Origin: Chloroflexota bacterium
GTDB taxonomy: Bacteria; Chloroflexota; Anaerolineae; Anaerolineales; Villigracilaceae
DNA length: 64,000 nucleotides
Direction: 5' to 3'
Assembly: GCA_016234485.1 (NCBI GenBank)
Contig: JACRBL010000029.1
Span: 248,001-312,000 of the forward strand
Made by a program: the position numbers and the translations under genes. The notes beneath the pieces are model-generated. The model ran no database searches, had not been told where the DNA came from, and saw only the letters and a program-made list of their open reading frames with translations. Below, piece by piece: positions 14,731-64,000 of the stretch (position 1 is the stretch's first letter; each line of letters opens with the position of its first letter).

Positions 14731-14813
14731 GGTGTCAGGTGCGAGGTGTCACGTGTCAAGTTGGCAAACTCGAATCCTGACACCTGAAACCTGGAACCTG
14801 AAACTTGAAACTT
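14731..14813 (+). repeat. Degenerate 7-8 bp-period repeat (ACCTGAA/GTGTCA type)
   Basis: Successive units such as GTGTCAGGT, GACACCTGAAACC, GGAACCTGAAAC, TTGAAACTT. The same motif family recurs at 62371-62400 and 63539-63602. The TTG start of the following gene lies inside it. Confidence 0.8.
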
Positions 14814-16052
14814 CACATCCCTCCCGCCCTCAAGCATTTTCGCTATCGCTATCTTTGGCTCGGCTTGTTAATCTCTGTTGCTGGCTCGCAAATGCAAAGC
14901 GCGGCCATCCATTGGCATATCCGCACTCTGACTGGCGAACCTGACCCTCTCGCATTGGGCGGAATCGGATTGGCGCGAATTTTGCCCGTCATTTTCTTTT
15001 CCATCATAGGTGGCGCGGTCGCGGACAATTACAATCGTCGCGCTATTCTTTTCATAACCCAATCCATCCTTGCTTTACAGGCTCTGGTCCTTGCCATCCT
15101 CACTTTTGGCGGACACATTGCCATCTGGCAAATCTATGTATTGACGGCCGTTCAGGCCGCGGCCATGGCTTTCGACCTGCCAGCAAGGCAATCTCTGGTG
15201 CCAAACCTGGTCCCGCGCGACGTGCTCCCTTCGGCCTTTGGGTTAAACACGATCGCTTTCAATGCTGGCGCCATCGGTGGACCATTATTGTTTGGGTTGA
15301 TTCCTGAAGGCAATATGGGGCTGGCTTACCTCCTCAATTCCATTTCTTTTTTGGCGGTTATCTTCGCGCTGATTTTTATGGGAAAGATTCCACAGGATGT
15401 GAATAAGGCGGGGGGGATTAACCTGCGAGCCATGTGGGACGGCGTCCGCTTTATTTTCTCTCGGCCATTGATCTCCTCAACCATGTTGATGGACTTTATT
15501 GCCACATTTTTTGCGTCGGCCAACACCATGCTCCCGATCGTTGCACAGGATATTTTGAAGGTTGGAAAGCCAGGATTCGCTTGGTTGACCTCAGCGCAGG
15601 CGATCGGCTCGGTAATGGCTGGAATTGTTGTTTCTCAGATTCCAAAATTACGTCGACAGGGATTGCTTTTCTTCGGAGCAGTTTTCGTTTTTGGCATAGC
15701 GACTATCCTTTTTGGGCTGGGCGCTTCGTTCGCGGTTGCCATGATAACTTTGTTCGTCATTGGCGCAGCTGACGCGGTTAGTACGGTTGTCCGCAACACC
15801 ATCCGCCAGTTGCAGACGCCCGATCACATCCGTGGGCGGATGACCAGCGTGAATCAGATTTTCTTCATGGGCGGCCCCCAATTGGGGGAGGTGGAGGCCG
15901 GGGTGGCCGCGGCCCTCTTCGGGGTTCCGTTTGCGATTGTCAGCGGCGGAATCGGCTGTATCCTCGGCATGGGACTCGTCGCCTGGAAATGGCCGCAACT
16001 GGTCACGTATGATTGGCACGAACCGCAACCCGCCGCTGCGACGGTTGATTAA
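14805..16052 (+). CDS. MFS exporter (EntS-like)
   Basis: 415 residues with about eleven to twelve membrane segments and the MFS loop GGAVADNYNRR between helices 2 and 3. Resembles EntS/MFS_3-type exporters (siderophore or drug efflux). A stop (14799-14801) lies directly upstream in frame and the first internal ATG would remove the first helix, so the start must be the TTG at 14805, which is part of a repeat. Substrate unknown. Confidence 0.85.
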   Translation: MKLHIPPALKHFRYRYLWLGLLISVAGSQMQSAAIHWHIRTLTGEPDPLALGGIGLARILPVIFFSIIGGAVADNYNRRAILFITQSILALQALVLAILTFGGHIAIWQIYVLTAVQAAAMAFDLPARQSLVPNLVPRDVLPSAFGLNTIAFNAGAIGGPLLFGLIPEGNMGLAYLLNSISFLAVIFALIFMGKIPQDVNKAGGINLRAMWDGVRFIFSRPLISSTMLMDFIATFFASANTMLPIVAQDILKVGKPGFAWLTSAQAIGSVMAGIVVSQIPKLRRQGLLFFGAVFVFGIATILFGLGASFAVAMITLFVIGAADAVSTVVRNTIRQLQTPDHIRGRMTSVNQIFFMGGPQLGEVEAGVAAALFGVPFAIVSGGIGCILGMGLVAWKWPQLVTYDWHEPQPAAATVD

Positions 16053-16102
16053 CGTCCTCCCTACAAGTCCCATACAATGCGGGTAGACGGTACTTTTGGC
16101 GG

Positions 16103-16131
16103 TTGACTTTGCCCGTGATTGTGGCTATACT
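16103..16131 (+). promoter_or_regulatory. Strong sigma-70-type promoter
   Basis: TTGACT (16103-16108), 17-base spacer, TATACT (16126-16131). Transcription would begin near 16138, followed by a 12-codon frame and a terminator hairpin before the zinc-finger gene. Confidence 0.75.
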
Positions 16132-16138
16132 GCGAACT

Positions 16139-16210
16139 ATGCGAGAGTTAACTTTTTTCAAGTCCCCTTTGTACTAAAAAGGCACGCGGCTATCCGCGTG
16201 CCTTTTTGTT
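16139..16210 (+). ncRNA. Possible short leader RNA or attenuator
   Basis: From the predicted start site a frame of 12 codons (MRELTFFKSPLY, 16139-16177) is followed at once by a perfect hairpin (AAAGGCACGCGG/CCGCGTGCCTTT, about 16178-16207) and T run. The product would be a roughly 70-nt RNA; read-through would express the SWIM protein. Alternatively the hairpin ends transcription from upstream. Not matched to a known RNA family. Confidence 0.4.
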
Positions 16211-16237
16211 TTCTCAAAAATTAAAAGGAGATAAAGT

Positions 16238-16480
16238 ATGGACTACGGAATGATCGGCAAGTTGGAAAAAGCAAAACGCTATGCGGAAGATCGCAAACGG
16301 TTTCGTTTCAACAAGTTCGATGTGACTTTCCACGGCGACAATAACGAACATAATGTCAGTTTTGAGAACGGCGTCTTCCACTGTGATTGCGAATTTTTTA
16401 TCACCCACAAACGTTGCGGTCACAGCATGGCGCTCGAAATCCTGCTCAAAGACATGATCGCGGTTCCCGAGCAGGCATAA
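16238..16480 (+). CDS. SWIM zinc-finger mini-protein
   Basis: 80 residues, start with AAAAGGAGAT seven bases upstream. The only recognisable domain is a SWIM-type finger, CDCEFFITHKRCGHSMALE (CxC-x(8)-CxH), near residues 48-66, preceded by a basic helical segment and a beta-rich part. SWIM fingers bind DNA or proteins; stand-alone versions are uncharacterised. Short terminator at 16500-16535 follows. Confidence 0.75.
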   Translation: MDYGMIGKLEKAKRYAEDRKRFRFNKFDVTFHGDNNEHNVSFENGVFHCDCEFFITHKRCGHSMALEILLKDMIAVPEQA

Positions 16481-16499
16481 CAGAATATCGTTCCCAACA

Positions 16500-16535
16500 A
16501 AAAAACTCCGCGCTCACGCGCGGAGTTTTTTTGTT
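16500..16535. terminator. Bidirectional intrinsic terminator
   Basis: AAAAAACTCCGCG / CGCGGAGTTTTTT stem between the converging SWIM gene and the secreted protein at 16548. Confidence 0.9.
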
Positions 16536-16547
16536 GGGAGGTTTCGT

Positions 16548-17234
16548 TTATGGAACGTAATACTCGATTTCGAGAACAGGCCTCAAGGCGCTGGCCGCGT
16601 TGCCGCTGTAGATCCCCACAAAGTCTGCGACTGCATTATTGTTATCGCCCAATTTGAAGTAGAGACGGAATTGCGTGGGTCCGCGTTTGTTCAGGTAGAT
16701 CCTGCCCGTCGCGTTTAATTTGGCCTTGTACCACCCGTTGACCGGCGTCCTGGCGAATGTGGCTACGACGGCTCGTCCAGCGGTAACTTGAAAATCGCTG
16801 GGCGTCAACGCCGATGTGCCGAAATACGGTTTTCGCATGTCCACATTCAGGGCTCCAAACGAAAGGAATGGATTGATTCCTCCAATTGCCTGGCGCCTGA
16901 TTTTAATCACCGCGCTGGCGATCACAGCCGTTGGCGGGATGGAGTAGCTGGCTGTATTGAAATGAAGAATGGCGACCGATTGTCTCTTTGCGACATCATC
17001 TCCAATTTTTATGACCGCCCCCGTCGCATTCACCGACCCGCCTACATTGGCGTTCTCGCTCAGTTCAAGAACCGAGCCATCAAATGTCCCAGCAGACTTG
17101 GGGTAGATGGGCGGATACCAATACGCAAACTCCGTTTTAGCCCCATAAGCGAGGGGAGCCTGGTTTGCCGCCACCGTGACAACCAGAACCACCACCAACA
17201 ACACGATTTCCACTTTTGATGATTTCAATTGCAT
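16548..17234 (-). CDS. Secreted beta-rich protein (DNRLRE-like)
   Basis: 228 residues. An N-terminal hydrophobic segment ending at about ANQAPLAYGA is a signal peptide. The rest is beta-rich, with repeated SVAILHFNT / AVIKIRR patterns and a C-terminal RPVLEIEYYVP, as in DNRLRE-domain exoproteins where the last strand motif is R-P-x-L-x-I/V-x-Y. Probably surface exposed. AGAGG lies close before the ATG. Function unknown. Confidence 0.65.
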   Translation of the reverse strand: MQLKSSKVEIVLLVVVLVVTVAANQAPLAYGAKTEFAYWYPPIYPKSAGTFDGSVLELSENANVGGSVNATGAVIKIGDDVAKRQSVAILHFNTASYSIPPTAVIASAVIKIRRQAIGGINPFLSFGALNVDMRKPYFGTSALTPSDFQVTAGRAVVATFARTPVNGWYKAKLNATGRIYLNKRGPTQFRLYFKLGDNNNAVADFVGIYSGNAASALRPVLEIEYYVP

Positions 17235-17304
17235 TCTCCTCTTGTACGTGGATTATTGTGAATTGTGTCGCTATTATACTTGCGGCAAGAACCACGTCAA
17301 CGGC

Positions 17305-19041
17305 CTATTTGGGTGAGCATCCCGTAACTCGGTAAAGGATGGTGGTCCCATCCGAGAACGCGGCCTCCACCCACGCGGACGTTGCCAATTGCGAATGGTT
17401 AAAACTGAATGGCGTTCCGCCCGCGTAAATAAAAATTTGCTTTCGACTCATCGAGCAAACTTCCAACATTGTAGTTTCGGAATTCCAATTCACATCAAAA
17501 TTAATCTTATTGGTATTACCATTCAACAAAGGCTCCAACCAGATGCCCGCGTCCGCGCCCATGATCTTCCCATCGCCCTCGAACGAAGAAATTAAGATGA
17601 GCGAATCGGGTGGGACGTTTTCCTCCATCCACGCGAAGGCCTGCCGATCTTCCTCCCTGAAATAGACGCAACACGGATTGGGCAACAGCGACCGCCCTCG
17701 GAAAAATATCAATGTAACCAGCAAACACAGCGCAACCCCCACGGACCGTTGAGCGGCCGCGCGCTTTGGCCAGCTTTTCATAACGCCGACAAATCCCGCG
17801 CCGCCCAGCGCGGCAAACGGAACGTAAAGCATCATCTCCAAAAATTGACGATCCAGCGGCGTTTGGATATTTTCGATCAAGAGTGGGGGAGCGATGGCGA
17901 TCAGCCAACAGCCGAGGATGTAAAAGAATGCGCCCACGGCCAGTCGCGGGAAAGAGCGAAACGCGAAAGGTAGAAGTACGATCCACGCTACGGCAGTGGG
18001 AATCGCGCTGTAAAAATCAAAAATAAGTTGGTGGATCGGCCAAAGCGAGATCAAAAAGAGAACCGAGAGCCGAACGGATGCAAAGAAACCCAATTCATCG
18101 GATGGAGCCAGTTTCTTTGACAGCAAATAAATGATTGCCGCCAAAAGCAAACAAACCAGAATCCGCGTATGCGCGAGCGTGATGCCCGCCAAAAGTCCAA
18201 GCGCGAGGACGATCCATGTCTTGTTTCGGGAATCCACGCGCAGGCCCTGTCCCAAAAAGGCCAGAACCGCGGGCGCAATCGCCAGCGCCCCCAGCGCGGG
18301 GAACTTCCCCCAATTCACCGCGAAGGCGGGCATGGCCCATCCCGTTGCGGCGATCAACCCGCCGAACAACGCCCCGTGGACATTTTTCGTCCACGCGTAA
18401 ACGAGCGCCACAACCGAAAGAGGCGCGATGGTCAGTAATAATTGTCCCACCAGCGAGATCGCGTTTTCGGGCGCTGTCCCTGTGATGGCAATCAGCCAGG
18501 CCGTCAGCCCATGAAACCCAAAGTGGTAATACTGCCCAAAGATATTGCCCAAGGATAAATTCGCCGCGCCCCCCTCCTCGGGTCGAATGAGACCGACAAC
18601 GATCTGGTAATGAATGGGGGAGTCGGAATACGAGGGGAGGAGAATATGCTTAAGGAAGGCCAGTCTTGCGACCAGAAGCGAGAACAGGGCAAGCGCCACT
18701 CCTGCCGCGCGCAGATTCCAGAGCGGTTTAAAATCGCCATCCCAAATCCCTTTGCCGATCACGAACAGCGAAAAAAGCAGAGGCAGAAAACTGGCAGGGA
18801 CAAAAAGCGGAGGAATAAAATAGCCCACCCAAATCAACAGATACGAGATTAGAAAAAGCGCCGCGCATCCGATGCTGAAACTGGAAAGGAATCGGATCCC
18901 CAAGTCCATTTCCTGTTTTCCGCCGCGCTTCAAAATGTAATGTCCCAGCCCAAACGATGTAAGAAAGAAAACGGCGATGCCCTCTTTATATACATCCAAC
19001 ACGGATAAGCCGTCGAGAATGAGACTCCACATGAAGTTCAT
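17305..19041 (-). CDS. Polytopic membrane protein, possible GT-C glycosyltransferase
   Basis: About 578 residues from the ATG at 19041; the frame extends to 19281 but that part overlaps the divergent gene at 19139 and is not membrane-like. At least twelve hydrophobic segments are followed by a soluble C-terminal part with FAWMEENVPPDSLILISS, a motif common at the start of the periplasmic region of GT-C (dolichol-phosphate-type) glycosyltransferases and DUF6541-like proteins. A catalytic Asp cannot be fixed by eye. Role in cell-envelope glycosylation is an inference. Confidence 0.6.
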   Translation of the reverse strand: MNFMWSLILDGLSVLDVYKEGIAVFFLTSFGLGHYILKRGGKQEMDLGIRFLSSFSIGCAALFLISYLLIWVGYFIPPLFVPASFLPLLFSLFVIGKGIWDGDFKPLWNLRAAGVALALFSLLVARLAFLKHILLPSYSDSPIHYQIVVGLIRPEEGGAANLSLGNIFGQYYHFGFHGLTAWLIAITGTAPENAISLVGQLLLTIAPLSVVALVYAWTKNVHGALFGGLIAATGWAMPAFAVNWGKFPALGALAIAPAVLAFLGQGLRVDSRNKTWIVLALGLLAGITLAHTRILVCLLLAAIIYLLSKKLAPSDELGFFASVRLSVLFLISLWPIHQLIFDFYSAIPTAVAWIVLLPFAFRSFPRLAVGAFFYILGCWLIAIAPPLLIENIQTPLDRQFLEMMLYVPFAALGGAGFVGVMKSWPKRAAAQRSVGVALCLLVTLIFFRGRSLLPNPCCVYFREEDRQAFAWMEENVPPDSLILISSFEGDGKIMGADAGIWLEPLLNGNTNKINFDVNWNSETTMLEVCSMSRKQIFIYAGGTPFSFNHSQLATSAWVEAAFSDGTTILYRVTGCSPK

Positions 19042-19126
19042 TATATCGCCACTGCAATAGCCCATCCGTCCCCTCTTCCATTTTTGCCACTTTTGCCAGC
19101 CTGATTTAAATTTAATCAAATTCGAG

Positions 19127-22425: not shown

Positions 22426-22433
22426 ATCATTTC

Positions 22434-22474
22434 ACTGTTCACTGATTACTGATCACTGAACACTGATCACTGAC
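22434..22474 (+). repeat. Degenerate tandem repeat (CACTGATTACTGATCACTGAAC type)
   Basis: Five or six 7-8 bp units of the form ACTG(A/T)TC / ACTGAAC just past the ahcY stop; same architecture as other loci, different motif. Confidence 0.8.
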
Positions 22475-23806
<1,332 letters not shown>

Positions 23807-24895: not shown

Positions 24896-27322
24896 ATGAA
24901 ATTCTCTCGCATCATCCTGACCTTTGTGCTGGTCGCGGCGATATCGGCCTGTTCCTCCCTTTCGCCTCTTCCCCTCGGCCCGACGGCGACTGCCTCCGCG
25001 ACATTAACGCCCACGGTCACGCCCACCTTCACGCCCACTCCCACGCCCATTCCCGCCATCCGCATCGAAAGCGGCGACCGCGCCTTCTTTAATGGCGACT
25101 ACGACGCGGCCCGCGCCGAATATCAGCAAGCCTTCAACCAATCCCAGGACGCGGACACGCGCGCCGAATCGCTCTGGGGATTGGCGCGCACGGAATTCGA
25201 AGCAGGCGATTTGAACGCCGCCAATGCATTTCTCGAGCAATTGGTCCGCGAGCACCCCGATCATTTGCGCGCCGCGCAAGCCCATTTTTTGCTGGGTGAA
25301 TCCTACGGCGAGTTGAATCGCTTCGCGGACGCCGCGGCGCAGTATGGCGCGTACCTGTCGGCGCGGATCAACGTCATTGACGCGTACGCGCTCGAACGTC
25401 AGGGTGACGCGTATTTCAGCGCCGCGAATTACGTCGAAGCGCTCGCGTCCTATAACGCCGCGATGCACGCTCCCCGCCGCGACGTCGGCCTGGAGTTGCA
25501 GATCAAAATCGGACAGACCCGCGCCGCCCTCGGCGATTACGCCGGCGCGCTGACTCAATATGACGCCATCGCGCTTTCAGGCAATGACTTTATCAAAGCG
25601 CAGATGGATTATCTTTCTGGTTCCGCGCATAAACTTTTAGGCGAGACCGATAAGTCCCAGGCGCGCTTTTTGCACGCCGTTGAAAATTACCCCGTCTCCT
25701 ATTATTCCTATCTCAGCCTGGTTGAACTCGTGGACGCGGGCGCGCCCGTGAACGACCTCGACCGCGGCATCGTGGATTACTTCGCGGGGCAATACGATGT
25801 CGGCATTGTCGCGCTCGACCGTGTCATCGCCAACGGCCTCGACACCGACGGAACCGCGCGTTACTACCGCGCTCTCAGCCTCGTGAAGGCGGAACGTCAC
25901 AGCGAAGGCGCGGCGGAGTTTCGCTTCTTCATTGATAATTTTTCCACGCACCCGAAATGGGCGCTTGCCTGGTATGGCGATCTCGACTATCCCACCATCA
26001 CGCCTGGGCTGGCGTTCACGCAATACTATTACCTGAATCAGCACACACAGGCCGCGCAGACCCTGCGTGAGTTCGCATCCACCGCGGTTGCAAATTCGCT
26101 CACCATGGATTACCTCATGTTGGCGGCGCGCATCCTGGAACGCGATAGCCAACTGAACGACGCGGCCGTTCTGTGGGAGTCTGTCGCCGAGCAATTCGCG
26201 GGCGATACGCGCGCGAAGGATTCAGCCTTCCTGGCGGGCATCACTTTTTATCGCCTTGGCGATCAAGCGCGCGCCCGCTCCAACTTTGAAAGCAGTCTCA
26301 CCCTCGCCACCGACACAGACAGCCGCGCCCGCGCCTATCTGTGGATCGGCAAGACGCACGAAAAACTTGGCGATACCGTCAAAGCGCAGGAAGCGTGGAC
26401 ACAAGCCCAAAACCTGGACGCGACCACCTACTACAGCGTGCGCTCGCGCGACCTATTGACGGGACGCGCCATCTTCGAGCCCGCCTCTCGCGCGGACCTC
26501 GATGTGGACCTGGCCTCCGAGCGCGTCGCCGCCGCCGATTGGATGCGCCTGCGCTTCAGCCTTCCCGCCGACACCGACCTGAGCGGCCCAGGCGCGCTCG
26601 CCTCCGATCCGCGTTTCGTGCGCGGCACGGAATTTTGGAGTCTCGGTCTCTACGACGAAGCCCGTCTTGAATTTGAAGATTTACGCGATTTGGTCAGTTC
26701 CAGCCCCGCTGATTCATTTCGTCTTGCCAACTACCTGCTCGATCTTGGACTCTACCGTTCGGGCGTCACCGCCATCCGCCAGGTGTTGACCCTCGCGGGC
26801 TACGATGAACATTCCGCCTCGTTGCAGGTGGCCGATTATTTCAACCATGTTCGTTATGGATTGTATTTCCGCGAGTTGATTGAACCTGCCGCGCAACTGA
26901 ATCAATTCGATGCGCTCTTCCTGTTCAGCGTGATGAGGCAGGAAAGTCTCTACGAGGGATTCGTCCGCTCGAGCGCGGGCGCGCGTGGACTGATGCAGAT
27001 CATCCCCGAAACAGGCGCGGACGTGGCCTCGCGCATGGGCTGGCCGCTATCCTTCGAGCCGGATATGTTGTATCGTCCCATCGTCAGCGTGAAACTGGGG
27101 ACGTATTACCTTGCCAGCAATCGCGTCTACTTGAACGGCGATCTCTATGGCGCGCTGGCCGCCTACAACGCAGGCCCAGGTAACGCCCTCGCCTGGCAGG
27201 GCCTCGCGGGCGACGACCCCGATCTCTTCCTCGAAGTCGTCCGCCCCGAAGAGACGCGCAATTACATCCGCGGGATTTACGAGATTTACAATATTTATCG
27301 AACGCTGTATAGCCCATTGTAA
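24896..27322 (+). CDS. Lipoprotein soluble lytic transglycosylase with TPR repeats
   Basis: 808 residues. Lipobox near residue 19 (AISACSS), then a Thr/Pro-rich spacer (TPTFTPTPTP), a long series of TPR-like helical repeats (residues 55-600) and a C-terminal SLT domain with the catalytic Glu in MRQESLYEG, ARGLMQIIPETG and AAYNAGPGN. Cleaves peptidoglycan between MurNAc and GlcNAc outside the membrane. Layout resembles Slt70 with the superhelix replaced by TPRs. Preceded by an almost perfect promoter, no leader. Confidence 0.93.
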   Translation: MKFSRIILTFVLVAAISACSSLSPLPLGPTATASATLTPTVTPTFTPTPTPIPAIRIESGDRAFFNGDYDAARAEYQQAFNQSQDADTRAESLWGLARTEFEAGDLNAANAFLEQLVREHPDHLRAAQAHFLLGESYGELNRFADAAAQYGAYLSARINVIDAYALERQGDAYFSAANYVEALASYNAAMHAPRRDVGLELQIKIGQTRAALGDYAGALTQYDAIALSGNDFIKAQMDYLSGSAHKLLGETDKSQARFLHAVENYPVSYYSYLSLVELVDAGAPVNDLDRGIVDYFAGQYDVGIVALDRVIANGLDTDGTARYYRALSLVKAERHSEGAAEFRFFIDNFSTHPKWALAWYGDLDYPTITPGLAFTQYYYLNQHTQAAQTLREFASTAVANSLTMDYLMLAARILERDSQLNDAAVLWESVAEQFAGDTRAKDSAFLAGITFYRLGDQARARSNFESSLTLATDTDSRARAYLWIGKTHEKLGDTVKAQEAWTQAQNLDATTYYSVRSRDLLTGRAIFEPASRADLDVDLASERVAAADWMRLRFSLPADTDLSGPGALASDPRFVRGTEFWSLGLYDEARLEFEDLRDLVSSSPADSFRLANYLLDLGLYRSGVTAIRQVLTLAGYDEHSASLQVADYFNHVRYGLYFRELIEPAAQLNQFDALFLFSVMRQESLYEGFVRSSAGARGLMQIIPETGADVASRMGWPLSFEPDMLYRPIVSVKLGTYYLASNRVYLNGDLYGALAAYNAGPGNALAWQGLAGDDPDLFLEVVRPEETRNYIRGIYEIYNIYRTLYSPL

Positions 27323-39924: not shown

Positions 39925-39944
39925 AGTTATTTTGTCGCATGGTC

Positions 39945-40058
39945 TGCTGATCGCGTAGTCTGGTAGTCGCTTGGTCTTGTGGTCGGGTTGTCACACGGTA
40001 GTGAGTTTATTGACCACGCGACTATTCGACTAGGTGACGAACTGACTATCCGACTACA
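39945..40058. repeat. Degenerate repeat (GTAGTCTGGTAGTCGCTTGGTC type) with inverted half
   Basis: Two stretches of 7-8 bp units: GTAGTC, TGGTAGTC, TTGGTC, TGTGGTC and GACTATTCGACTAG, GACGAAC, TGACTATCC, GACTACAAG. The halves are complementary to each other. Same architecture as other degenerate loci. Confidence 0.75.
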
Positions 40059-40061
40059 AGA

Positions 40062-40517
40062 CTACCTAACTCTTGATTCGCGATCCGAGTCGCGTTGCGC
40101 GTCGCGCTGAGCGATGACCGCGCGTTTGTCGTGTAGTTTTTTGCCGCGGGCGAGGGCGATCTCGATCTTGGCGCGCCCCTCTTTAAGATAGACGCGCGTC
40201 GGGACTATGGTCATGCCCTTTTGACGGACGGAGGTGAACAGTTCGCGGATCTCGCGTTTGTTGAGGAGCAGGCGGCGCGGGCGCACGGGATCGTGGTTGT
40301 AGCGGCTGGCCTGTTCATAGGGCGCGATGTGCGCGCCGCGCAGCCAGGCCTGACCCGCGTCAATCTCGATGTACGATTCCATCAGGCTCATTTGTCCCGC
40401 GCGGATGGACTTGATCTCGGAGCCTTGCAGAGATAATCCCGCCTCGAATGTCTCCAGCAAAAAATATTCAAACCCAGCCTTGCGGTTGGTGGCTACGACT
40501 TTGATTTCTTCGGTCAC
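40062..40517 (-). CDS. smpB: SsrA-binding protein SmpB
   Basis: 151 residues. Signature GLSLQGSEIKSIRAGQMSL and LNKREIRELF followed by the basic disordered tail, typical SmpB length. Binds tmRNA and delivers it to stalled ribosomes. Start is a GTG with TACAAT six bases before it, so no leader. The ssrA gene is not in the window. The last codons run into the degenerate repeat region. Confidence 0.96.
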   Translation of the reverse strand: MTEEIKVVATNRKAGFEYFLLETFEAGLSLQGSEIKSIRAGQMSLMESYIEIDAGQAWLRGAHIAPYEQASRYNHDPVRPRRLLLNKREIRELFTSVRQKGMTIVPTRVYLKEGRAKIEIALARGKKLHDKRAVIAQRDAQRDSDRESRVR

Positions 40518-40529: not shown

Positions 40530-40636
40530 ACATGATTGCCCGCATGCCTATCGAAAACAAAAAATAACCGCGAAGCACGCAAAGTTTTTTTCTTCTTCGC
40601 GCACTTTGCGGGCTGGGCGGTTAAATTATCTGTAAA

Positions 40637-44404: not shown

Positions 44405-44462
44405 GAGCGATACTCGATAATTCGATATTCGGCAACAGAATATCGAATCTCGACTATCGAAT
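44405..44462 (+). repeat. Degenerate repeat (TCGATATTCGGCAACAGAATATCG type)
   Basis: Units of ACTCGATAATTCG, GATATTCGG, GAATATCGAATC, TCGACTATCG; same motif as 23755-23806, here between pdhA and pdhB. Confidence 0.8.
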
Positions 44463-44476
44463 AATGAGGAATTCAC

Positions 44477-45451
44477 ATGACCAAAATCACAATGCGCGAG
44501 GCGATCTCGCAAGCTCTTATGGAAGAAATGGACCGCGACCCCGCCGTCTTTATTATGGGCGAGGAGGTCGGTGTGTGGGGCGGCACGTATGCCGTCACTA
44601 AAGGATTTTTTGACAAGTACGGCGCGGACCGCGTGAAGGATACGCCTATCGCGGAAAACGCGATCATCGGCGCGGCCATCGGCGCCGCGATGGTGGGACA
44701 ACGTCCCATCGCGGAACTGATGACGATCAACTTCGCCTTCTCGGCGATGGACTACATCGTCAACCAGGCCGCCAAGTTACGCTACATGTTCGGCGGACAG
44801 TTCATGCTCCCGCTGGTTATTCGCGCCGTCGGCGGCGGTGGACGTCAACTGGGCGCGACGCACTCGCAGACTCCCGACGCGATCTTCGCGCATTTCCCTG
44901 GCCTGAAAGTGGTCAGTCCCGGCACGCCCGAAGATGCGAAAGGATTGCTCAAGTCCGCCATCCGTTCGAATGACCCGATCCTGTTCATCGAGCACGCCAC
45001 GATGTACCAAGTCCGCGGCGAAGTGCCAGACGGCGAGTACACCATCCCGATCGGCAAATCCAAAGTGCAACGTGCGGGCAAAGACCTGACCATCGTCACC
45101 TATTGCAAGGGTCTCGAACTCTCGATGAAGGCCGCCGAAGAACTCGCACAGCAAGGCATCGAAGCCGAGATCGTTGACCTGCGCACGCTCCGTCCGCTCG
45201 ACATGGAGCCTGTGCTAGAGTCGTTCAAGAAAACCAATCGCGCCATCGTCGTTGAGGAAGGTTGGAAGTCCTATGGCGTTGGCAGTGAAATTGTCAGTCG
45301 CATTTACGAGGAAGCCTTCGATTACGTCGACGCGCCGATCATCCGCGTGGCGCAAAAAGAAGTCCCGCTTCCGTACAACCGCACGCTCGAACAAGCCGCC
45401 CTCCCGCAAGTGCACGACATCGTCGCCGCGGCAAAGGAGGTTTTGAAATAA
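44477..45451 (+). CDS. pdhB: 2-oxoacid dehydrogenase E1 component, beta subunit
   Basis: 324 residues; GAGGAA is the ribosome site. Transketolase-type beta subunit with GEEVGVWGGTYAVTKGF, DTPIAENAIIGAAIGAAM and HEAGRQLGATHSQ-like loop (GGGGRQLGATHSQ), and the C-terminal VDLRTLRPLDMEPVLES. The stop overlaps pdhC by one base. Confidence 0.93.
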   Translation: MTKITMREAISQALMEEMDRDPAVFIMGEEVGVWGGTYAVTKGFFDKYGADRVKDTPIAENAIIGAAIGAAMVGQRPIAELMTINFAFSAMDYIVNQAAKLRYMFGGQFMLPLVIRAVGGGGRQLGATHSQTPDAIFAHFPGLKVVSPGTPEDAKGLLKSAIRSNDPILFIEHATMYQVRGEVPDGEYTIPIGKSKVQRAGKDLTIVTYCKGLELSMKAAEELAQQGIEAEIVDLRTLRPLDMEPVLESFKKTNRAIVVEEGWKSYGVGSEIVSRIYEEAFDYVDAPIIRVAQKEVPLPYNRTLEQAALPQVHDIVAAAKEVLK

Positions 45452-46704
45452 TGGCTGAAACAATCTCCATGCCCAAACTTGGCTTCGACATGGCCGAGGG
45501 CCTCCTCGTCCGCTGGGTGAAGCAGGTAGGCGAAACGATCAACAAAGGCGACGTTCTCGCCGAGATCGAAACCGACAAAGCGACGGTGGAAGTTGAATCG
45601 TCTGCTAGTGGTATCGTGTTGCAACACATCGTTGACCAGGGGACGATGGTTCCCGTCAACGCGCCGATTGCGGTGGTTGGAAATGCTGGGGAAAAAGTGG
45701 ACGCGCCTGCGGCGACTTCGTCGAACGTCGAAGGTCAAACGTCGAACGATGAACGTTTAACGTTAAACGTTCCGACTCCGCCTGTAGCGGACTCTGTTTC
45801 TCAGGCCGTCGCGTCCGTTTCCGCGGGGGCTGTGAAGGCGAGTCCGCTGGCGAAGAAGATGGCGAAAGACAACAATGTCAATCTTGCCTCCGTCCAAGGC
45901 ACAGGACCAGGTGGACGCGTAGTGCGCAAGGATATTGAAGCGGCGTTGACTGCCAGTCAAACGTTTAACGTTCAACGATCAACGACACCCGTCCCCTCGA
46001 CACCCGTCACTGTTACGCAAGAAGACAAGATCATTCAAACGACAAAGTTACGCCAAGCCATCGGACGCCGTTTGGTTGAATCGAAAAACACCATCCCGCA
46101 CTTCTACGTGACGCACGAGTACAAGATGGATGCGTTGATGGACATGCGCAAGCAGATCAACGCCTTCCTTGGCGACAATGAAAAAGTGTCGGTCAACGAC
46201 TTCATCGTCAAAGCCGTGGCGTTGACGTTGCGCCAGTTCCCGAACTTGAACGCGACCATCAAGGGCAATGAGGTGATTCAGTTTGGTCACGTCAACGTCG
46301 GCGTGGCAGTGACTGTCCCTGGAGGGCTGATGACCGTCGTCGTGAAAGACGCGGACGCGAAGTCCCTGCGCCAGATTTCGGGGGAGGTCAAGGCCATGGC
46401 TGGCCGCGCCCGCGAGGGGAAGGTCAAGACCGAGGATGTGGACGGCTCCACGTTCTCCACGTCCAATCTTGGGATGTACGATGTGGACGAATTCATCGCC
46501 ATTATCAATCCACCCGAGGCCGCGATTTTGGCGATTGGCTCGGCAAAGGAAATGCCTGTGGTGGAGGGCGGTCAAATCAAGGTGGGATGGAGACTGAAAG
46601 CCACAATCTCCGTTGACCACCGCGTCAGTGACGGCGCGGAGGCGGCGCAGTTCATGCAGAAACTGGCCGATTTCTTGGAAAACCCGGTCAGGATGTTGGT
46701 GTAA
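45451..46704 (+). CDS. pdhC: Dihydrolipoamide acyltransferase (E2)
   Basis: 417 residues: lipoyl domain (residues 1-77, lysine in EIETDKATVEVE), linker, peripheral-subunit-binding domain (about 130-165, SPLAKKMAKDNNV..GRVVRKDIEAAL) and catalytic domain with SVDHRVSDGAEAAQFM, whose His/Asp are the active residues. AAAGGAGG precedes the start. Two linker stretches (about residues 90-108 and 169-178) are encoded by degenerate short repeats (45719-45773, 45957-45986). The 3' end recurs at 48195-48293. Confidence 0.93.
   Translation: MAETISMPKLGFDMAEGLLVRWVKQVGETINKGDVLAEIETDKATVEVESSASGIVLQHIVDQGTMVPVNAPIAVVGNAGEKVDAPAATSSNVEGQTSNDERLTLNVPTPPVADSVSQAVASVSAGAVKASPLAKKMAKDNNVNLASVQGTGPGGRVVRKDIEAALTASQTFNVQRSTTPVPSTPVTVTQEDKIIQTTKLRQAIGRRLVESKNTIPHFYVTHEYKMDALMDMRKQINAFLGDNEKVSVNDFIVKAVALTLRQFPNLNATIKGNEVIQFGHVNVGVAVTVPGGLMTVVVKDADAKSLRQISGEVKAMAGRAREGKVKTEDVDGSTFSTSNLGMYDVDEFIAIINPPEAAILAIGSAKEMPVVEGGQIKVGWRLKATISVDHRVSDGAEAAQFMQKLADFLENPVRMLV
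45719..45773 (+). repeat. Degenerate repeat inside the E2 linker, part 1
   Basis: Units GAACGTCGAAGGTC, AAACGTCGAACG, ATGAACGTTTAACG, TTAAACGTT in frame with pdhC. Confidence 0.8.
45957..45986 (+). repeat. Degenerate repeat inside the E2 linker, part 2
   Basis: Same motif (CAAACGTTTAACG, TTCAACGATCAACGA) after the subunit-binding domain, also in frame. Confidence 0.75.
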
Positions 46705-58269: not shown

Positions 58270-58450
58270 TTTGGAGGAAAAGAGCATAAACACGAAGGAC
58301 ACAAAGTGTCACAAAGGGAAAAGACCTCTTGATTTTTCGGGCTTTTCCTTCGTTGCCTTCCCTGGCGCCGCCCGCCACACTTGCACCGCACTGCGTTTGG
58401 TGCAGTGCAGGTGGGGCAGGTGTGTGCACCTTTGTGTTTAAAAGGTTTTC
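58270..58450. repeat. Nested repeats (three levels)
   Basis: Outer short-period repeat (CGAAGGACACAAAGTGTCACAAAGGG .. CCTTTGTGTTTAAAAGG), inside it the 29-bp element CCCTGGCGCCGCCCGCC..GGGCAGGTGTG (58360-58424) and inside that a third palindrome (58377-58412, TTGCACCGCACTGCG / GGTGCAGTGCAGG). Confidence 0.75.
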
Positions 58451-59134: not shown

Positions 59135-60525
59135 TGCTGATCCACCCACGGAATCACGAGCGTCACTTCCGTGCCTTTGCTGGTTTCAAATTCGATCGTT
59201 CCATTCAACAGGCGGGCGCGATCACGCATGTTGCTCAGGCCGTATCCCTGTTTGGCGCTGGGGGAGATGCCCACGCCGTCGTCCTTGATGGCGATGCGTA
59301 AATGTTCGCCCTCGTCGCGCGCGGAGATGTGGACGCGTTGCGCCTGTGCGTGCCGCACCGTGTTTGATAGCGCCTCGTTGACGATGGCCGCCACGTGACT
59401 CGAGCGCATGGGCGAGAGGTTTTTCTGACCCGGCAATTGAATATCGAGCGTGATGCCGATCATCGAGTTGTAGTGCGGATCGTCCGAAAGACGCGTCAAG
59501 AGGACGGGCAGCGGGTCGGCCACCTTCGGGGTGGATTCGTGCAATTCGGCCAGATTCCGCCTCAGGTCCGCGATGGAATCGTTGATGACCACCACGGCGC
59601 GCTTGAGACGTTTGTCAAACTCGCTTTCGGGAGCGGCCAGGCGCGCGGCGGATTCCACCAGCAGTCCGGCGGTGTACACTTTTTGGATCGCGCCGTCGTG
59701 CAGTTCACGCGCCAGGCGTTCATGGTCAGCGTTGAGGATCTGTTGTTGTTCCAGTTCTTCGATGCGGCGCTGGGTTTCCACGTCGAAGATTTCCAGCGCG
59801 CGGATGATGGCGTATGCGACGATCGCCGCGACCGCCGAACGGAAAACCCAGGGCGGGATTCCAATTGCTTCTGTAAACGTGGTTGTGTTGAGAATATTGC
59901 CAGGAAAAAAATGGACAGGCGGCGGAATGATTCCAGCCAGCCAGGCGTAGATGGCAAGCGAGATTCCGGCGATTTGAAAAGTCTGAATGATCTTGGGGAC
60001 GTTTAGGGGGCGAATGCGCTTCATGGTATGCACACGCAGGCCATAGGCCGCGAGCAGTCCGCCAGGAAAACCGATGAAGTAACGGGCGAGCGCGTTGGCA
60101 GTATGTCGCCATAAATATTCATCTGTAAATCGCGGGAGGAGGATGAAACTCACGCCCAGCCATGTCAGAAAAAAAATCGCCGCCAGCCATTGGCGTTGAT
60201 TCCCGCGCGGGCGGAGGACGGTCAACCCGAATTGAAGCAGGCAGGTGAACGAAATCGCCAGCAGAATCAGGTGGATTCGGTAAAGGGTTTGCATGATGGC
60301 GGAATTGAGATACTCGGCCTGGATGGGTATGAACAGGTCGCCCCATTCAAAAAAGCCGTGCGTGATGCCAAAGGCCGCCAGCCAGCGCAGACTGCGCGCC
60401 AGCTCCAGCCGCGAGGAACGCCGCGTTTGCAGGATGATGGCGAAGCCAAGAATGAAGAATACCAACCCATAAACGAAAAGGATGATTTCGTGGTTGATCT
60501 CGAAAAATTCAGAGAGGCTGATCAT
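59131..60525 (-). CDS. HisKA_3 histidine kinase with 7-8 membrane segments
   Basis: 464 residues. N-terminal membrane region of about eight segments (a 7TM-DISM/MASE-like sensor), a linker coiled coil, phospho-acceptor His in HERLARELHDGAIQKVYT and a full ATPase domain (NEALSNTVRHAQ, KDDGVGISPS, GYGLSNMRDRARL). Partner of the following regulator. TACAAT lies ten bases before the ATG. Confidence 0.9.
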   Translation of the reverse strand: MISLSEFFEINHEIILFVYGLVFFILGFAIILQTRRSSRLELARSLRWLAAFGITHGFFEWGDLFIPIQAEYLNSAIMQTLYRIHLILLAISFTCLLQFGLTVLRPRGNQRQWLAAIFFLTWLGVSFILLPRFTDEYLWRHTANALARYFIGFPGGLLAAYGLRVHTMKRIRPLNVPKIIQTFQIAGISLAIYAWLAGIIPPPVHFFPGNILNTTTFTEAIGIPPWVFRSAVAAIVAYAIIRALEIFDVETQRRIEELEQQQILNADHERLARELHDGAIQKVYTAGLLVESAARLAAPESEFDKRLKRAVVVINDSIADLRRNLAELHESTPKVADPLPVLLTRLSDDPHYNSMIGITLDIQLPGQKNLSPMRSSHVAAIVNEALSNTVRHAQAQRVHISARDEGEHLRIAIKDDGVGISPSAKQGYGLSNMRDRARLLNGTIEFETSKGTEVTLVIPWVDQQ

Positions 60526-60565
60526 GGTGGGCGGTATTGTAGCATGGAGGTTGTTGCGCCGCCTA

Positions 60566-60608
60566 TTTTGAGCGGCTCAGATTGGATTCCGATAGGCTCG
60601 GATTTGCC
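60566..60608 (+). repeat. Dispersed repeat, copy 2 (TTGAGC..GGCTCGGATTTG)
   Basis: Matches 12632-12676; sits in the kinase promoter region. Confidence 0.7.
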
Positions 60609-60727
60609 TTCCACCCTGCCCTTCTCTTGGAACAGTGGCTTTGGAGCGGAAAGCGCCAGGCGGGATATAATCCACTCGCCAGCCAGCAACAAATTTCGAT
60701 ACCTAAACGCGAAGACTTAATTTCCCC

Positions 60728-61498
60728 ATGGCCCTCCGCATTCTCAACGGTTTCACCAAATCGCTTCCGTGGCCGCCGTATAAAAAAATTGGCGCGGTCT
60801 GTTTGCTGGCCGAGACGAGCGACGGCCTTCTGCTTGTGGACTCTGGCATAGGCTTGCAGGATTATCACCGTCCCTCGCGCATGATGCGCGATTTTATGAA
60901 CGTGATGCAAGCCATCCGCGACCCTGAGATTGCCATCGTCCGCCAACTGGCGCGGCTGGGATACAAACCCGCAGACGTGCGTCACATCGTTCTCACGCAT
61001 CTGCATCTTGATCACGCCGGCGGTCTGCCCGATTTTCCAAACGCGATGGTGCATGTCTTTCAGCGCGAGTTTCAAGCGTGGAAACATCCGCGTAAATTGT
61101 TTGAAATCCCATACGATAAATCTCACTTCGCGCACGGCCCACGCTGGAGCTTTCATCAACTGGAGGGGGAGAAGTGGTGCGGTTTTGACGCCGTCCGCCT
61201 CGCGGGACTCGAACCCGAAGTCTGGCTGGTTCCGCTCCCCGGCCACACATCGGGGCATTGCGGCGTCGCGCTCCAAACCGAAACGGGTTGGATTTTCCAA
61301 TGTGGCGATGCGGTCCCCGTCAATTTGGATCTTCGCCCTGGCATGGTTCTGTTTTACCGTCCCACCATCGGCGCAAATGTCCCGCGCTTGAAAGCCTTCG
61401 CCAAAGCGCATCCCGAAGTCCGCATGATCGCGGGGCATATGGATTTGGATTTTTTTCTAGAAGGAGGTCTCTCCCGTAATCAGCGGGAAAGAACCTAA
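60728..61498 (+). CDS. Metallo-beta-lactamase-fold hydrolase
   Basis: 256 residues: HLHLDHAGGLPDF (HxHxDH), His in LPGHTSGHCGV and Asp in FQCGDAVPVN are the zinc ligands. The LPxFP signature recalls N-acyl-homoserine-lactonase/RNase-Z-like quenching lactonases but substrate is open. The last residues (LEGGLSRNQRERT) run into a CACAAAGGACACAAAG repeat. CTTAAT six bases before the ATG (weak leaderless box). Next gene is a paralogue. Confidence 0.85.
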   Translation: MALRILNGFTKSLPWPPYKKIGAVCLLAETSDGLLLVDSGIGLQDYHRPSRMMRDFMNVMQAIRDPEIAIVRQLARLGYKPADVRHIVLTHLHLDHAGGLPDFPNAMVHVFQREFQAWKHPRKLFEIPYDKSHFAHGPRWSFHQLEGEKWCGFDAVRLAGLEPEVWLVPLPGHTSGHCGVALQTETGWIFQCGDAVPVNLDLRPGMVLFYRPTIGANVPRLKAFAKAHPEVRMIAGHMDLDFFLEGGLSRNQRERT

Positions 61499-61597
61499 CC
61501 ACAAAGGACACAAAGTACACAAAGGGGGAAAAGGGATAAATTTTACAGGCGGTTTTCCTTAGTGACCTTAGTGTCCTTTGTGGTTAAAAGGTTTTAA
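61495..61597 (+). repeat. Degenerate repeat (ACCACAAAGGACACAAAGTACACAAAGG type), inverted halves
   Basis: Direct half at 61498-61535 and complementary half CCTTAGTGACCTTAGTGTCC TTTGTGGTT at 61556-61585. Same motif as in 58270-58330 and 40555-40600. Confidence 0.78.
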
Positions 61598-61626
61598 AAA
61601 CGGTAGAACCAAAAGGAGAAAATACT

Positions 61627-62373
61627 ATGACCATCCACCTGATGAATTGCTTCACCGACAACGCCCGCTGGCCGAGCAATATGAAAACGGGCATGGTTTG
61701 TCTCTTGATCGAATCCGAGCAGGGATTGATTCTCGTGGACACAGGTCTTGGTACTCGGGACTATTCCGACCCCACCTGGTTTACTCAATTCTTCCGCGTC
61801 ATCACGGTCATGCCATTCGATGTGAACGAGGCCGCGCTCAACCGCATCCGCGCGCTGGGATTCGATCCCGCGGACGTGAAGCACATCATCCTCACGCACA
61901 TGCACTTCGATCACTGCGGCGGCCTGCCCGATTTTCCGCACGCGCAGGTCCACGTTCACAAACGTGAGTACGACGCCTTCACAGGGAAAAGTTTCAATTG
62001 GAAAAATGCCGCATACATTCCACGCAACCTGGCGCACAAGCCCGAACTAACGCTTTACGAAACGATCGACTCGAAATGGTTCGATTTCGATGCCATTCGC
62101 CTGCCCTTCTCGCCCGAAATATATTTCATTCCCCTCTTCGGCCACTCGGCAGGACATTGCGGCGTCGTCATTAAAACCAACGATGGCTGGTTCCTCCACG
62201 CAGGCGACTCGTCTGCCGTCTACAACGACACGACCCCCAAATGGCTCATCCACCTCGTCCTCGGTCCCCATGATGCGCGCCTCAGAAAATTCAAACAAGA
62301 TCACCCCGAAGTCCTAATCACCAACAGCCACATGTTTCCCGAATTCTTCGATCAACATTCCACCATCTCCTGA
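61627..62373 (+). CDS. Metallo-beta-lactamase-fold hydrolase, paralogue
   Basis: 248 residues: HMHFDHCGGLPDFPHAQVHV, GHSAGHCGVVIKTND and HAGDSSAVYND are the zinc motifs. Closely related to the gene before, a tandem duplication. AAAAGGAGAAAA precedes the ATG. Repeat units follow the stop and lead into the next gene. Confidence 0.88.
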   Translation: MTIHLMNCFTDNARWPSNMKTGMVCLLIESEQGLILVDTGLGTRDYSDPTWFTQFFRVITVMPFDVNEAALNRIRALGFDPADVKHIILTHMHFDHCGGLPDFPHAQVHVHKREYDAFTGKSFNWKNAAYIPRNLAHKPELTLYETIDSKWFDFDAIRLPFSPEIYFIPLFGHSAGHCGVVIKTNDGWFLHAGDSSAVYNDTTPKWLIHLVLGPHDARLRKFKQDHPEVLITNSHMFPEFFDQHSTIS

Positions 62374-62400
62374 CACCTGAAACGTGACACTTGAAACTTG
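62371..62400 (+). repeat. Degenerate repeat (GACACCTGAAACGTGACACTTGAAACTT)
   Basis: Same motif as 14731-14813; overlaps the stop of one gene and ends just before the start of the next. Confidence 0.8.
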
Positions 62401-62406
62401 GCTTCC

Positions 62407-63555
62407 ATGTACCTCCTCATCGAATTCCTTGACGAACTCGTCTTCGGCGTGGGCGAAACCGCCTGGCCGCTCATCCGCGACGACCTCCATCTGAACTACA
62501 CCCAGATCGGCTTGCTCCTCAGCGTCCCTGGCATCATCGCCGCCTTCATCGAACCCTTCATCGGCATCCTCGGCGACGTGTGGAAGCGCCGCGCCCTCAT
62601 CCTTGCGGGCGGCGTCTTCTTCACGCTCTCCCTCGTTTTCACAGCCATCAGCCACTCTTTCCTCTTTCTTCTTTTCTCTTTCATTCTTTTCTTCCCCATG
62701 TCGGGCGCGTTCGTCTCCCTCTCCCAAGCCTCGCTGATGGACTCCGCCCCCGACCGCCACGAACAAAACATGGCGCGCTGGACCTTCGCTGGCTCGCTCG
62801 GCGTTCTCACTGGACCTCTCCTGCTCGGACTCTTCATCTACCTCGGACTTGGCTGGCGCGGGACGTACGCCCTCCTCGCCGCGTTGTCGACCCTCATCCT
62901 GATCCTCGCCTTTCGCCGCGTCCCGCCCGATCGCGCGCCGGCCGCGGCGTTTCCATCTTTTCGCGCCGTCCTCGAAGGATTCCGCGCGGCCTTCTCGGCC
63001 CTCAAACGCCGCGAAATCTGGCGCTGGCTGCTCCTGCTCGAATTCGCCGACCTGATGATGGACGTGCTTCTCAGTTTCCTCGCCCTCTACTTCGTGGACG
63101 TGGCGCTGGTCAGCGAATCGCAGGCCGGCATCGCGGTCACCTTCTGGCTGGCTCTCGGCCTCTTCACCGACTTTGCTTTCATCCCCTTCATTGACCGCCA
63201 GCCGAACAGCATAAAATTCCTGCGTCTCACCGCGGCCGCGCAACTCATCTTCTTCCCACTCTTTCTCCTCATCCCAGGCTTCCTCCCCAAACTCGCGGTC
63301 ATCGTGCTCGTCAATTTTTGCAATACGGGCTGGTATCCTATCTTGCAGGGACGGTTATACTCAGCCCTCCCAGGCCAATCCGCCAGCCTCATGGCAATCG
63401 GCGCGGTCACCACTCCGCTCGCCAAAGCGCTCCCTCTCCTCATCGGCTTCCTCGCCGACCAATTCGGCCTTGGAATCGCGATGTGGATTCTCCTCCTCGG
63501 CCCAATCGCGCTCCTCATCGGTCTTCCTCGCCGCAACCTGACACCTGACACCTGA
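62407..63555 (+). CDS. MFS transporter
   Basis: 382 residues, eleven to twelve membrane segments, with GILGDVWKRRALILAGG (MFS loop 2-3). A TTG at 62398 inside the repeat is an alternative start. The C-terminus ends NLTPDT, where the last codons and the stop lie in a degenerate repeat (63539-). Family placement otherwise unspecific. Confidence 0.85.
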   Translation: MYLLIEFLDELVFGVGETAWPLIRDDLHLNYTQIGLLLSVPGIIAAFIEPFIGILGDVWKRRALILAGGVFFTLSLVFTAISHSFLFLLFSFILFFPMSGAFVSLSQASLMDSAPDRHEQNMARWTFAGSLGVLTGPLLLGLFIYLGLGWRGTYALLAALSTLILILAFRRVPPDRAPAAAFPSFRAVLEGFRAAFSALKRREIWRWLLLLEFADLMMDVLLSFLALYFVDVALVSESQAGIAVTFWLALGLFTDFAFIPFIDRQPNSIKFLRLTAAAQLIFFPLFLLIPGFLPKLAVIVLVNFCNTGWYPILQGRLYSALPGQSASLMAIGAVTTPLAKALPLLIGFLADQFGLGIAMWILLLGPIALLIGLPRRNLTPDT

Positions 63556-63602
63556 CACGTGAAACTTGAAACTTGGAATCTGAAACTTGACACCTGAAAC
63601 CT
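63539..63602 (+). repeat. Degenerate repeat (CTGACACCTGACACCTGACACG type)
   Basis: Covers the MFS stop, the spacer and the hemW TTG start; motif as at 14731 and 62371. Confidence 0.82.
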
Positions 63603-64000
63603 CGATCTACCTCCACATCCCCTTCTGCACCCACCGCTGCGCCTACTGCGACTTCAACACCTACGCGGGCCAGGAATCCCTGATTCCCGCCTACGTTGAC
63701 GCGTTAATCCATGAAATTGAATTTATCGGAAGGCAACTTTCCAACCTTTCAACCTTCAACATTCCAACGGTATTTTTTGGCGGCGGGACTCCCTCGCTTC
63801 TTTCCGGACCTCAGCTGGCCGCGGTCATGGACGCGTTACGCGCCGCCTTCGCGTTCTCCTCCGACCTCGAAGCCACCATCGAAGCCAACCCTGGCACAAC
63901 CTCGGCCGATTTCCTCCATCAAATTCGCGCGGCGGGCATCAACCGCCTCTCCTTCGGCGTCCAATCTGCCAATGTGGACGAACTCCACATGCTCGAACGC
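63587..64000 (+). CDS. hemW: HemW-like radical SAM protein, 3' end outside window
   Basis: 138 codons visible. After a TTG start within the repeat (LTPETSIYLH..) comes IPFCTHRCAYCDFNTYAG, the CxxxCxxC radical-SAM iron-sulfur site, then FFGGGTPSLLS and EANPGTTSADFL, all typical of HemW (former HemN-like). HemW inserts haem into proteins. Residues 48-60 (about 63729-63768) are coded by another degenerate short repeat (CCAACCTTTCAACCTTCAAC). Confidence 0.85.
   Translation, partial: MTPETSIYLHIPFCTHRCAYCDFNTYAGQESLIPAYVDALIHEIEFIGRQLSNLSTFNIPTVFFGGGTPSLLSGPQLAAVMDALRAAFAFSSDLEATIEANPGTTSADFLHQIRAAGINRLSFGVQSANVDELHMLER

Follow-up and report, generated by a model that had tools for sequence, protein, structure and literature searches.

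The heptamer repeats of cyanobacteria go by the name of short tandemly repeated repetitive (STRR) sequences, and the Rickettsia palindromic elements, which are longer and conserved, lie in frame inside protein genes. Here we are concerned with degenerate tandem arrays of short words, mostly of seven bases, in a 64,000-base stretch of a Chloroflexota draft genome (G000:C8:248001-312000, the window in what follows; 4.46 Mb in 68 contigs) and in its relatives. Heptamers are the commonest long simple repeats according to Mrazek (2007), as cited in PMC4679880 and PMC4692102, both of which also credit that work with explaining the preference for seven by the polymerase footprint, and the heptanucleotides of Calothrix are cited in PMC4692102. 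Single-word precedents exist in the accessible sections of several reports. TAACTGA repeats are dispersed in Beggiatoaceae, Cyanobacteria and Bacteroidetes, with no mechanism known (MacGregor 2015, PMC4679880). A study of GGGAATC of Xanthomonas and GGGGAYT of Nostoc reports 70 and 75 paired sites as convergent (Rehm 2015, PMC4692102), and (GATAGRA)n makes up 22 satellites of a single word in Chloroflexus aurantiacus (PMC6749651). The P6b stem of the Nostoc trnL intron consists of heptamers and swaps between two heptamer classes (PMC4476775). In these sections, heptamer repeats are mostly treated as single words and are usually explained by slippage. No description of a multi-word lexicon, or of word exchange at many sites, was found in the literature searched, which covered few subscription papers. 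The arrays described below constitute a class of degenerate, polar words that is dispersed and depends on the lineage. The genome reuses a limited set of words; the arrays are found between genes, where they often take the form of two facing arms (W-> <-W), and in frame in insert-tolerant loops and linkers of proteins; a given site often has another word, or none, in a related species, and one congener is nearly devoid of the class.

Arrays were detected with Tandem Repeats Finder and a lag scan. In the window, four arrays at lag 7 passed a strict test that none passed in 50 third-order Markov simulations. Among the other lags from 4 to 30, only lag 12 (one array, a coding repeat) and lag 14 (three arrays, all of which also appear at lag 7) gave any. 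The genome-wide counts cover 816,355 bases, 18% of the genome, and were compared with one simulated genome only. At scores of 12, 14, 16 and 18 they amount to 60, 43, 25 and 15 arrays for lag 7 and to 9, 3, 2 and 1 for lag 8, against 2, 0, 0 and 0 for lag 7 in the simulated genome. At a score of at least 14, lag 6 gave six arrays, lag 9 one, and lags 5 and 10 none; multiples of three and seven also show up at score 14 (lag 6 with those six, lag 14 with eight, lag 24 with five). The dispersed short tandem heptamers exceed chance, as is characteristic of STRR-like repeats, with 43 arrays against none simulated. The initial annotation had put the period at 7-8 bases. Seven is indeed dominant, but the ACAAAGG loci, including the variant GCGAAGCACGCAAAG at 40555, have a period of nine, and the locus at 39945 one of about 8/16.

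The words recur across the genome. When 52 lag-7 arrays were clustered by consensus word, allowing up to one difference from the cluster center, they fell into AATACGC (11), ACTGATC (9), AATATCG (8), AACGTTC (5), AAACCTG (4) and ten smaller groups. Of the 1326 pairs, 44 have identical words, whereas 20 letter shuffles gave 3.3 such pairs on average and never more than 7. The motifs had been described as locus-specific and different at every locus, a view that does not hold: the 13 loci then listed already comprise seven motif groups, which recur elsewhere in the genome. Unrelated local motifs are ruled out by the words that separate loci have in common. Word A (ACTGATN) has 183 21-mer matches in G000 with up to three mismatches, against none for the reversed control; in a sample taken across the phylum, 25 of 151 genomes had any match. 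The other words needed below are word B (ATATTCG at the E1-alpha/E1-beta spacer), word C (AACGTTN), word E (GGTGTCA / TGAMACC type), word D and word H. Self-complementary units as the rule by which words are picked were weighed by hand, without computation, and dropped.

Many arrays face an inverted partner. Of 62 arrays with periods of 7-9 in G000, 13 have such a partner no more than 70 bases away (1.7% of control comparisons reach the threshold used), and a further 11 contain both arms, or a near-palindromic word, internally. The remaining 38 have no flanking or internal inverted arm at that threshold, so that one-directional arrays are common. In the DNA of the family, where 38 elements with complementary arms were listed (a few being one-directional arrays that pair with themselves), opposite arms of eleven words within 60 bases stand as W-> <-W in 63 cases and as <-W W-> in 4 (46 and 2 at a stricter threshold), a count that is partly circular because the orientation of the words was taken from the same DNA. 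For word A, the orientation was preset and counted out of sample, giving 24:0 in favor of the facing form in 20 named loci, among the matches listed, from cyanobacteria, Planctomycetota, Verrucomicrobia, Flavobacterium, Desulfobacca and other Deltaproteobacteria, Pyrinomonadaceae and Chloroflexi. Viral pieces gave 106:1, with the facing form in 35 pieces, many of whose contigs are probably related, and 79 to 0 in a looser count. The head-to-head word polarity of telomere-like repeats is present, with exceptions for word D that are considered below. In Anabaena azotica (L223), one arm is a CAGTGAA run and the other an ACTGATA run.

The units combine fixed cores with free positions, so that an array repeats one word with degenerate bases, as STRR-like heptamers do. 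From 213 distinct lag-7 arrays of G000 and its relatives, those near one of nine words were split into units. The profile of word A (48 arrays, 255 units) has ACTG fixed at 95-98%, A at position 5 in 77% and T at position 6 in 82%, whereas position 7 is divided among C (.51), A (.18), G (.16) and T (.16). Arrays were then collected by core alone, and adjacent units were compared at the freest positions, which were picked after the profiles had been seen. For six words across the family, neighbors agree in 214 of 569 comparisons (0.376; shuffling the units between arrays gives 0.380, p 0.61), and for five words in G000 alone in 100 of 242 (0.413 versus 0.412).

The same sites in related genomes carry different words. 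The E1-alpha/E1-beta spacer was compared by eye in 20 genomes (G000 and 19 others; G006 lacks the region), and a two-armed element was found in 14, with six words: ATATTCG in G000, G031 and G036; ACACAAAGG in G001 and G014; AGAGAAC in G002, G007 and G010; GTAMACAG in G005 and G030; ACTGATN in G022, G023 and G033; and GACGATG in G035. Among the 20, the spacers of G003, G011 and G025 have no element. The spacers of G020 (L066), G013 (L067) and G017 (L077) carry other, longer repeat elements. The neighboring E2 gene has a lag-7 or lag-8 array at score 12 in 14 of the same number of genes, with varying words; no array at that score was found in E2 of G003, G011, G014, G020, G025 or G035. As for priA, the gene of G000 (recognized by its Pfam PriA domains) bears four arrays of four words, and at least one array at score 11 is present in 14 of 30 genomes. 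Three PriA loops differ in word between congeners; loop 2 reads TCGCCAA in G000, AACCTTC in G001, GCTCTCC in G002 and G007, and CAGTCTC and CAATTAC in G004, whereas loop 1 is common to G000 and G001. The third loop is shorter in the array-free G005 and G014, and priA of G001 carries a GGGAATN array. At 62369..62401 of the window, word E is also found in G002, G005 and G007. These comparisons indicate that arrays are gained, lost and exchanged, while some persist.

The density of arrays differs about tenfold between relatives of similar G+C content (0.54-0.57): at score 13, G000 has 6.4 and G002 5.0 lag-7 arrays per 100 kb, compared with 0.7 in the congener G003 (138,923 bases), where word A has no match, and 0.5 in G014 (220,000 bases). 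G023 reaches 16.4 per 100 kb in a biased sample. Among 37 genomes, Y1 transposases were found in 36, array-rich and array-poor alike, MutS_I in 35, Ku in one, and the reverse transcriptase domain RVT_1 (Pfam) in 23, including the array-poor G003 and G014; RVT_1 had no match in the array-bearing G008, G010 and G022. None of the four follows array richness, and all were rejected as discriminating factors. Because one congener is nearly without arrays, a responsible gene or condition can be sought.

Word A extends far beyond the family. Its pattern matches at least 114 stretches of species genomes, which span at least ten phyla among the matches listed (phyla assigned from genome names); the other repeats in these stretches, among the same matches, mostly have lag 7 too. 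Whole-genome word counts in other phyla covered words A and D. Word D matched in 13 of 31 named genomes and is mainly a Chloroflexota word there. Outside Chloroflexota metagenome-assembled genomes (MAGs), its largest counts, 23 and 19 with a reversed control of 0, came from two cyanobacteria, for one of which the matches listed represent another word, TAGGCAA; one other cyanobacterium gave no match, against 20 for the control. With 13 of 31 genomes, and cyanobacterial matches that are partly TAGGCAA, word D was dropped as a cross-phylum word. Two collections of elements were noted on the way. One is a viral contig with a Phage_Mu_Gam protein (L288, IMGVR_UViG_3300025506_000008, 11.5 of 21.9 kb), which has 25 lag-7 arrays in 11.5 kb. 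The other is an element of about 220 bases holding a two-armed word-D hairpin in the Anaerolineae MAG T2_metabat1_scaf2bin.155 (G233; L394-L400); an Rfam search of two of its pieces, L394 and L398, gave no match to this element. At L212:2473-2518 on the minus strand, an Acido-Lenti-1 RNA match lies above the gathering score.

The arrays of the window were found at or beside the coordinates named previously. They are as follows, with z for folding stability relative to shuffles:

14732..14813: two-armed, word E; left arm of GGTGTCA type at 14732-14758, right arm of TGAMACC type at 14778-14813; z -3.5
22431..22473: one-directional, word A (ACTGATN), six units; z -4.0
23764..23806: two-armed, degenerate word B; left arm 23764-23785, right arm 23786-23806; z -0.5, not unusually stable
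39942..40066: two-armed, words of about 8 bases; left arm of GTAGTCKG type at 39942-39992, right arm of CGACTA type at 40012-40066; z -3.9
40566..40622: two-armed, variant of a 9-base word; left arm 40566-40584, right arm 40604-40622; z -3.7
44407..44463: two-armed, word B; left arm 44407-44431, right arm 44438-44463; z -4.9
45719..45771, plus strand: word C (AACGTTN), in frame in the first linker of E2 (ORF 45451-46704)
45960..45985, plus strand: word C again, in frame, in the E2 linker ahead of the catalytic domain
58288..58439: two arms with a long loop, 9-base word ACACAAAGG; left arm 58288-58317, right arm 58427-58439
61497..61585: two-armed, 9-base word ACACAAAGG; left arm 61497-61525, right arm 61557-61585; z -5.3
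62369..62401, plus strand: one-directional word E at the start of ORF 62398-63555 (MFS family)
63535..63602, plus strand: one-directional word E; last codons of ORF 62398-63555, and holds TTG 63587
63734..63768, plus strand: CAACCTT type, 7-8 bases, in frame in the YLHIPFC reading frame

Seven of the loci named at the outset (14731, 23755, 39945, 40555, 44405, 58270 and 61495) consist of two facing arms, which had been missed. Folding was compared with shuffles for six of these (58270 excepted), and five beat the shuffles, with z from -3.5 to -5.3, the exception being 23755 (z -0.5); the one-directional arrays at 62369, 63534 and 45719 fold no better than shuffles. The only Rfam match in the window at the gathering threshold is a tRNA, and seven 20-kb stretches yielded two tRNAs and a piece of rRNA; a known RNA family was accordingly dropped as an explanation.

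Crude open reading frame (ORF) calls place 28 of the 62 arrays within genes, 21 at the edge of a gene and 13 in intergenic DNA, and those in coding DNA translate into peptides such as VERLTLNVQ, QYAIRNTQY and SVINDQSSVISG. Such peptides in proteins should warn the annotator, as QYAIRNTQY or VERLTLNVQ there is repeat DNA read through. Within the window, the element at 44407..44463 occupies most of the E1-alpha/E1-beta spacer. Both arrays in the linkers of E2 are in frame, as described before, and a plasmid search with E2 gave only matches under 60% identity. The array at 63734 is likewise in frame in the YLHIPFC reading frame; HemW is the putative name given to that protein in the initial annotation. 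The claim that arrays supply the TTG starts of two genes and the last codons of a third agrees with our coordinates, the starts being the mechanical first starts of ORFs. The right arm of 14732..14813 holds the TTG that opens ORF 14805-16052 (MFS family), TTG 63587 inside an array is the only ATG, GTG or TTG before the YLHIPFC motif in a frame that opens at 63584, and ORF 62398-63555 ends inside an array. The same ORF contains, at 62655-62686, a CTCTTTC-type array with a 7/14-base period that was absent from the earlier list. A coding repeat of ACGCCC type with a 12-base period, at 24999-25057, has no relation to the heptamer class.

We tentatively favor, at somewhat less than even confidence, the reading that these STRR-like dispersed words have been laid down by a word-specific, strand-polar process. 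It is suggested by the recurrence of the words, their fixed cores, the lack of neighbor copying at the freest positions and the facing polarity, and also by the absence of shared flanks, the presence of another word at the same site and the tenfold difference in density between relatives. Word-specific copying of this kind would transmit the core of a word rather than any particular array, and the polarity would arise if the process, starting on either side of a site, always followed the same strand direction. Later, units would be gained, lost and varied, and arrays would survive where insertion is close to neutral. Such deposition fits most of the facts, whereas slippage alone does not fit the family and a copied cassette does not fit G000. 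In our view most arrays are selfish DNA or a by-product and not regulators, although a role in mRNA may have been acquired by some of the spacer hairpins.

Several observations weigh against this deposition. We found no enzyme or template, and Y1 transposase, reverse transcriptase, Ku and MutS do not follow array richness. Word D accounts for three of the four polarity exceptions (word B for the other) and breaks the polarity in three of nine cases, and the looser count of word A in named loci is 27:2, among the matches listed. At less free positions, neighbors agree above the shuffle, for word A at positions 5 (0.54 versus 0.48) and 6 (0.72 versus 0.62), for word C at positions 5 (0.84 versus 0.75) and 6 (0.89 versus 0.66) and for word D at position 6 (0.85 versus 0.78), so some local copying occurs. 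Opposite arms, aligned at their best offset, a choice that favors agreement, agree at position 7 of word A in 17 of 30 cases (0.43 expected of independent arms), at position 7 of word H in 8 of 15 (0.51), at position 5 of word B in 18 of 25 (0.57) and, clearly above independence, at position 7 of word D in 11 of 14 (0.38). Templating of one arm from the other was nevertheless rejected, the free positions being near or somewhat above independence with that one clear excess. At the 63535 locus, word E persists in G002, G005, G006 and G007 with different units (in G007 the locus is cut by a contig end, and in G005 an 8-base array adjoins it), while the gene there has no match in G001 and G003 and only a partial one in G004. 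At other loci, arrays appear, vanish and change words among the relatives, while this one keeps its word. Finally, whole elements look copied in G233, where the element of about 220 bases has 17 copies in 91.9 kb chosen for hits, and whole-element copying is suggested in the Mu-like L288 by many facing CAGTNAT/ACTGATN hairpins with like loops.

The two last points would be expected if each word were a small non-autonomous two-armed hairpin that moves whole and then decays in its loop, free bases and unit number, the polarity being inherited from one founder per word. Mobile hairpins of this kind, which we consider possible but doubtful, would explain both polarity and dispersal. In G000, however, the flanks are unrelated. 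Of 13 flank matches between arrays, eight come from neighboring arrays with overlapping flanks, and the other five are 15-23 bases long, and a copied cassette was rejected for this genome. The loops of family elements also look unrelated by eye, and only the word is common to different copies, so that the conserved palindromic sequence of REP/REPIN elements, which are tied to RAYT, is absent. Moreover, the cores stay fixed, which is not expected from decay alone, 38 of the 62 arrays are one-directional, and Y1 transposases, present in all but one of 37 genomes, also occur where arrays are rare. To this extent, the initial description was apt: a single class that obeys common rules in many motifs, and no single spreading sequence.

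Local expansion of a chance heptamer pair by polymerase slippage, with seven favored by the polymerase footprint and point mutation degrading the units, would account for the dominance of period 7, as proposed by Mrazek (2007), as well as for the agreement of neighbors at the less free positions. Word A elsewhere also speaks for it. The 114 listed stretches of named genomes, found by a search for four units of ACTGAT each followed by any base, have adjacent agreement of 615/864 (0.71 versus 0.37), and viral pieces of 809/1226 (0.66 versus 0.31), so the word A arrays there look slippage-grown. In this family, slippage alone fails because the freest positions agree no better than shuffled units, and it predicts neither a shared lexicon nor fixed polarity nor position-specific conservation. 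We regard slippage as improbable as the origin of the class. Of the slippage- or template-driven origin proposed initially, simple slippage finds no support in the family, and a template may be involved.

The stability of five of the six folded window loci and the two-armed elements in 14 of 20 E1-alpha/E1-beta spacers, despite their six words, are what would be seen if the spacer elements were kept as mRNA stems for processing, stability or operon stoichiometry, their sequence being free as long as it pairs; the P6b stem of Nostoc trnL swaps heptamer classes in a like manner (PMC4476775, accessible sections). Selection of RNA hairpins nevertheless seems an unlikely cause, as three of the 20 spacers have no element and three another kind, 28 of the 62 arrays lie inside genes and G003 is nearly without arrays. 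Pairing at free positions is little above independence, and pairing needs no fixed polarity.

If, much as in telomere fusion, a broken site had repeats of a word added at each of its 3' ends and the ends were then joined, this would by nature give W-> <-W with independent arms, unrelated flanks and free bases from loose templating, and left arms of ten facing words hold more G than C in six, more or equal in one, equal in three and fewer in none (hand count), but no break site was seen. We hold such end addition to be very improbable; the lack of Ku in 36 of 37 genomes, and the RVT_1 results (missing from three array-bearing genomes, present in two array-poor ones), speak against its simplest form. 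A broader version is speculative and, in our judgment, has a small chance of being right: in many bacteria, a hidden activity might write word repeats from a few templates onto both 3' ends of a broken or stalled site and join them, the template setting the words, loose templating the free bases and the direction of synthesis the polarity. If so, ACTGATN, with the same polarity in several phyla, would be the mark of one widely shared template.

One bacterial family thus combines a lexicon of words, fixed facing polarity, exchange at the same site, inserts in core proteins and no neighbor copying at the freest bases. The origin of the arrays is open to testing, as it is apparently a word, and not an array, that is copied, in one strand direction. 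Compared with the Rickettsia palindromic elements, the arrays have in-frame insertion in common, with nearly half of those in G000 inside crude ORFs, but they are word arrays of 20-70 bases with no single conserved sequence. The TAACTGA repeat equals word A with A at the free position (ACTGATN, N = A), and both are dispersed. The accessible sections of PMC4679880 describe a single strict word that is inverted in one of 170 sets, whereas our arrays vary at N, often have facing arms and belong to several coexisting words. The GGGAATC and GGGGAYT repeats are heptamers with free positions, and their convergent pairs have the polarity found here. GGGAATC differs as a single G-rich word, discussed as a quadruplex former and mostly intergenic, for which the corresponding sections of PMC4692102 report no word exchange. 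(GATAGRA)n likewise consists of scattered heptamers with a free base, probably in the same phylum as G000, but arms, word exchange and protein inserts go without mention in the accessible part of PMC6749651. The Nostoc trnL P6b stem resembles our elements in its heptamers with free positions (TDNGATT, NNTGAGT), its stem and the replacement of one class by another at one site, as far as described in PMC4476775. Compared with this stem and with the cyanobacterial STRR sequences, on the same partial basis, our family has many words at many sites per genome, protein loops included, and no neighbor copying at the freest positions.

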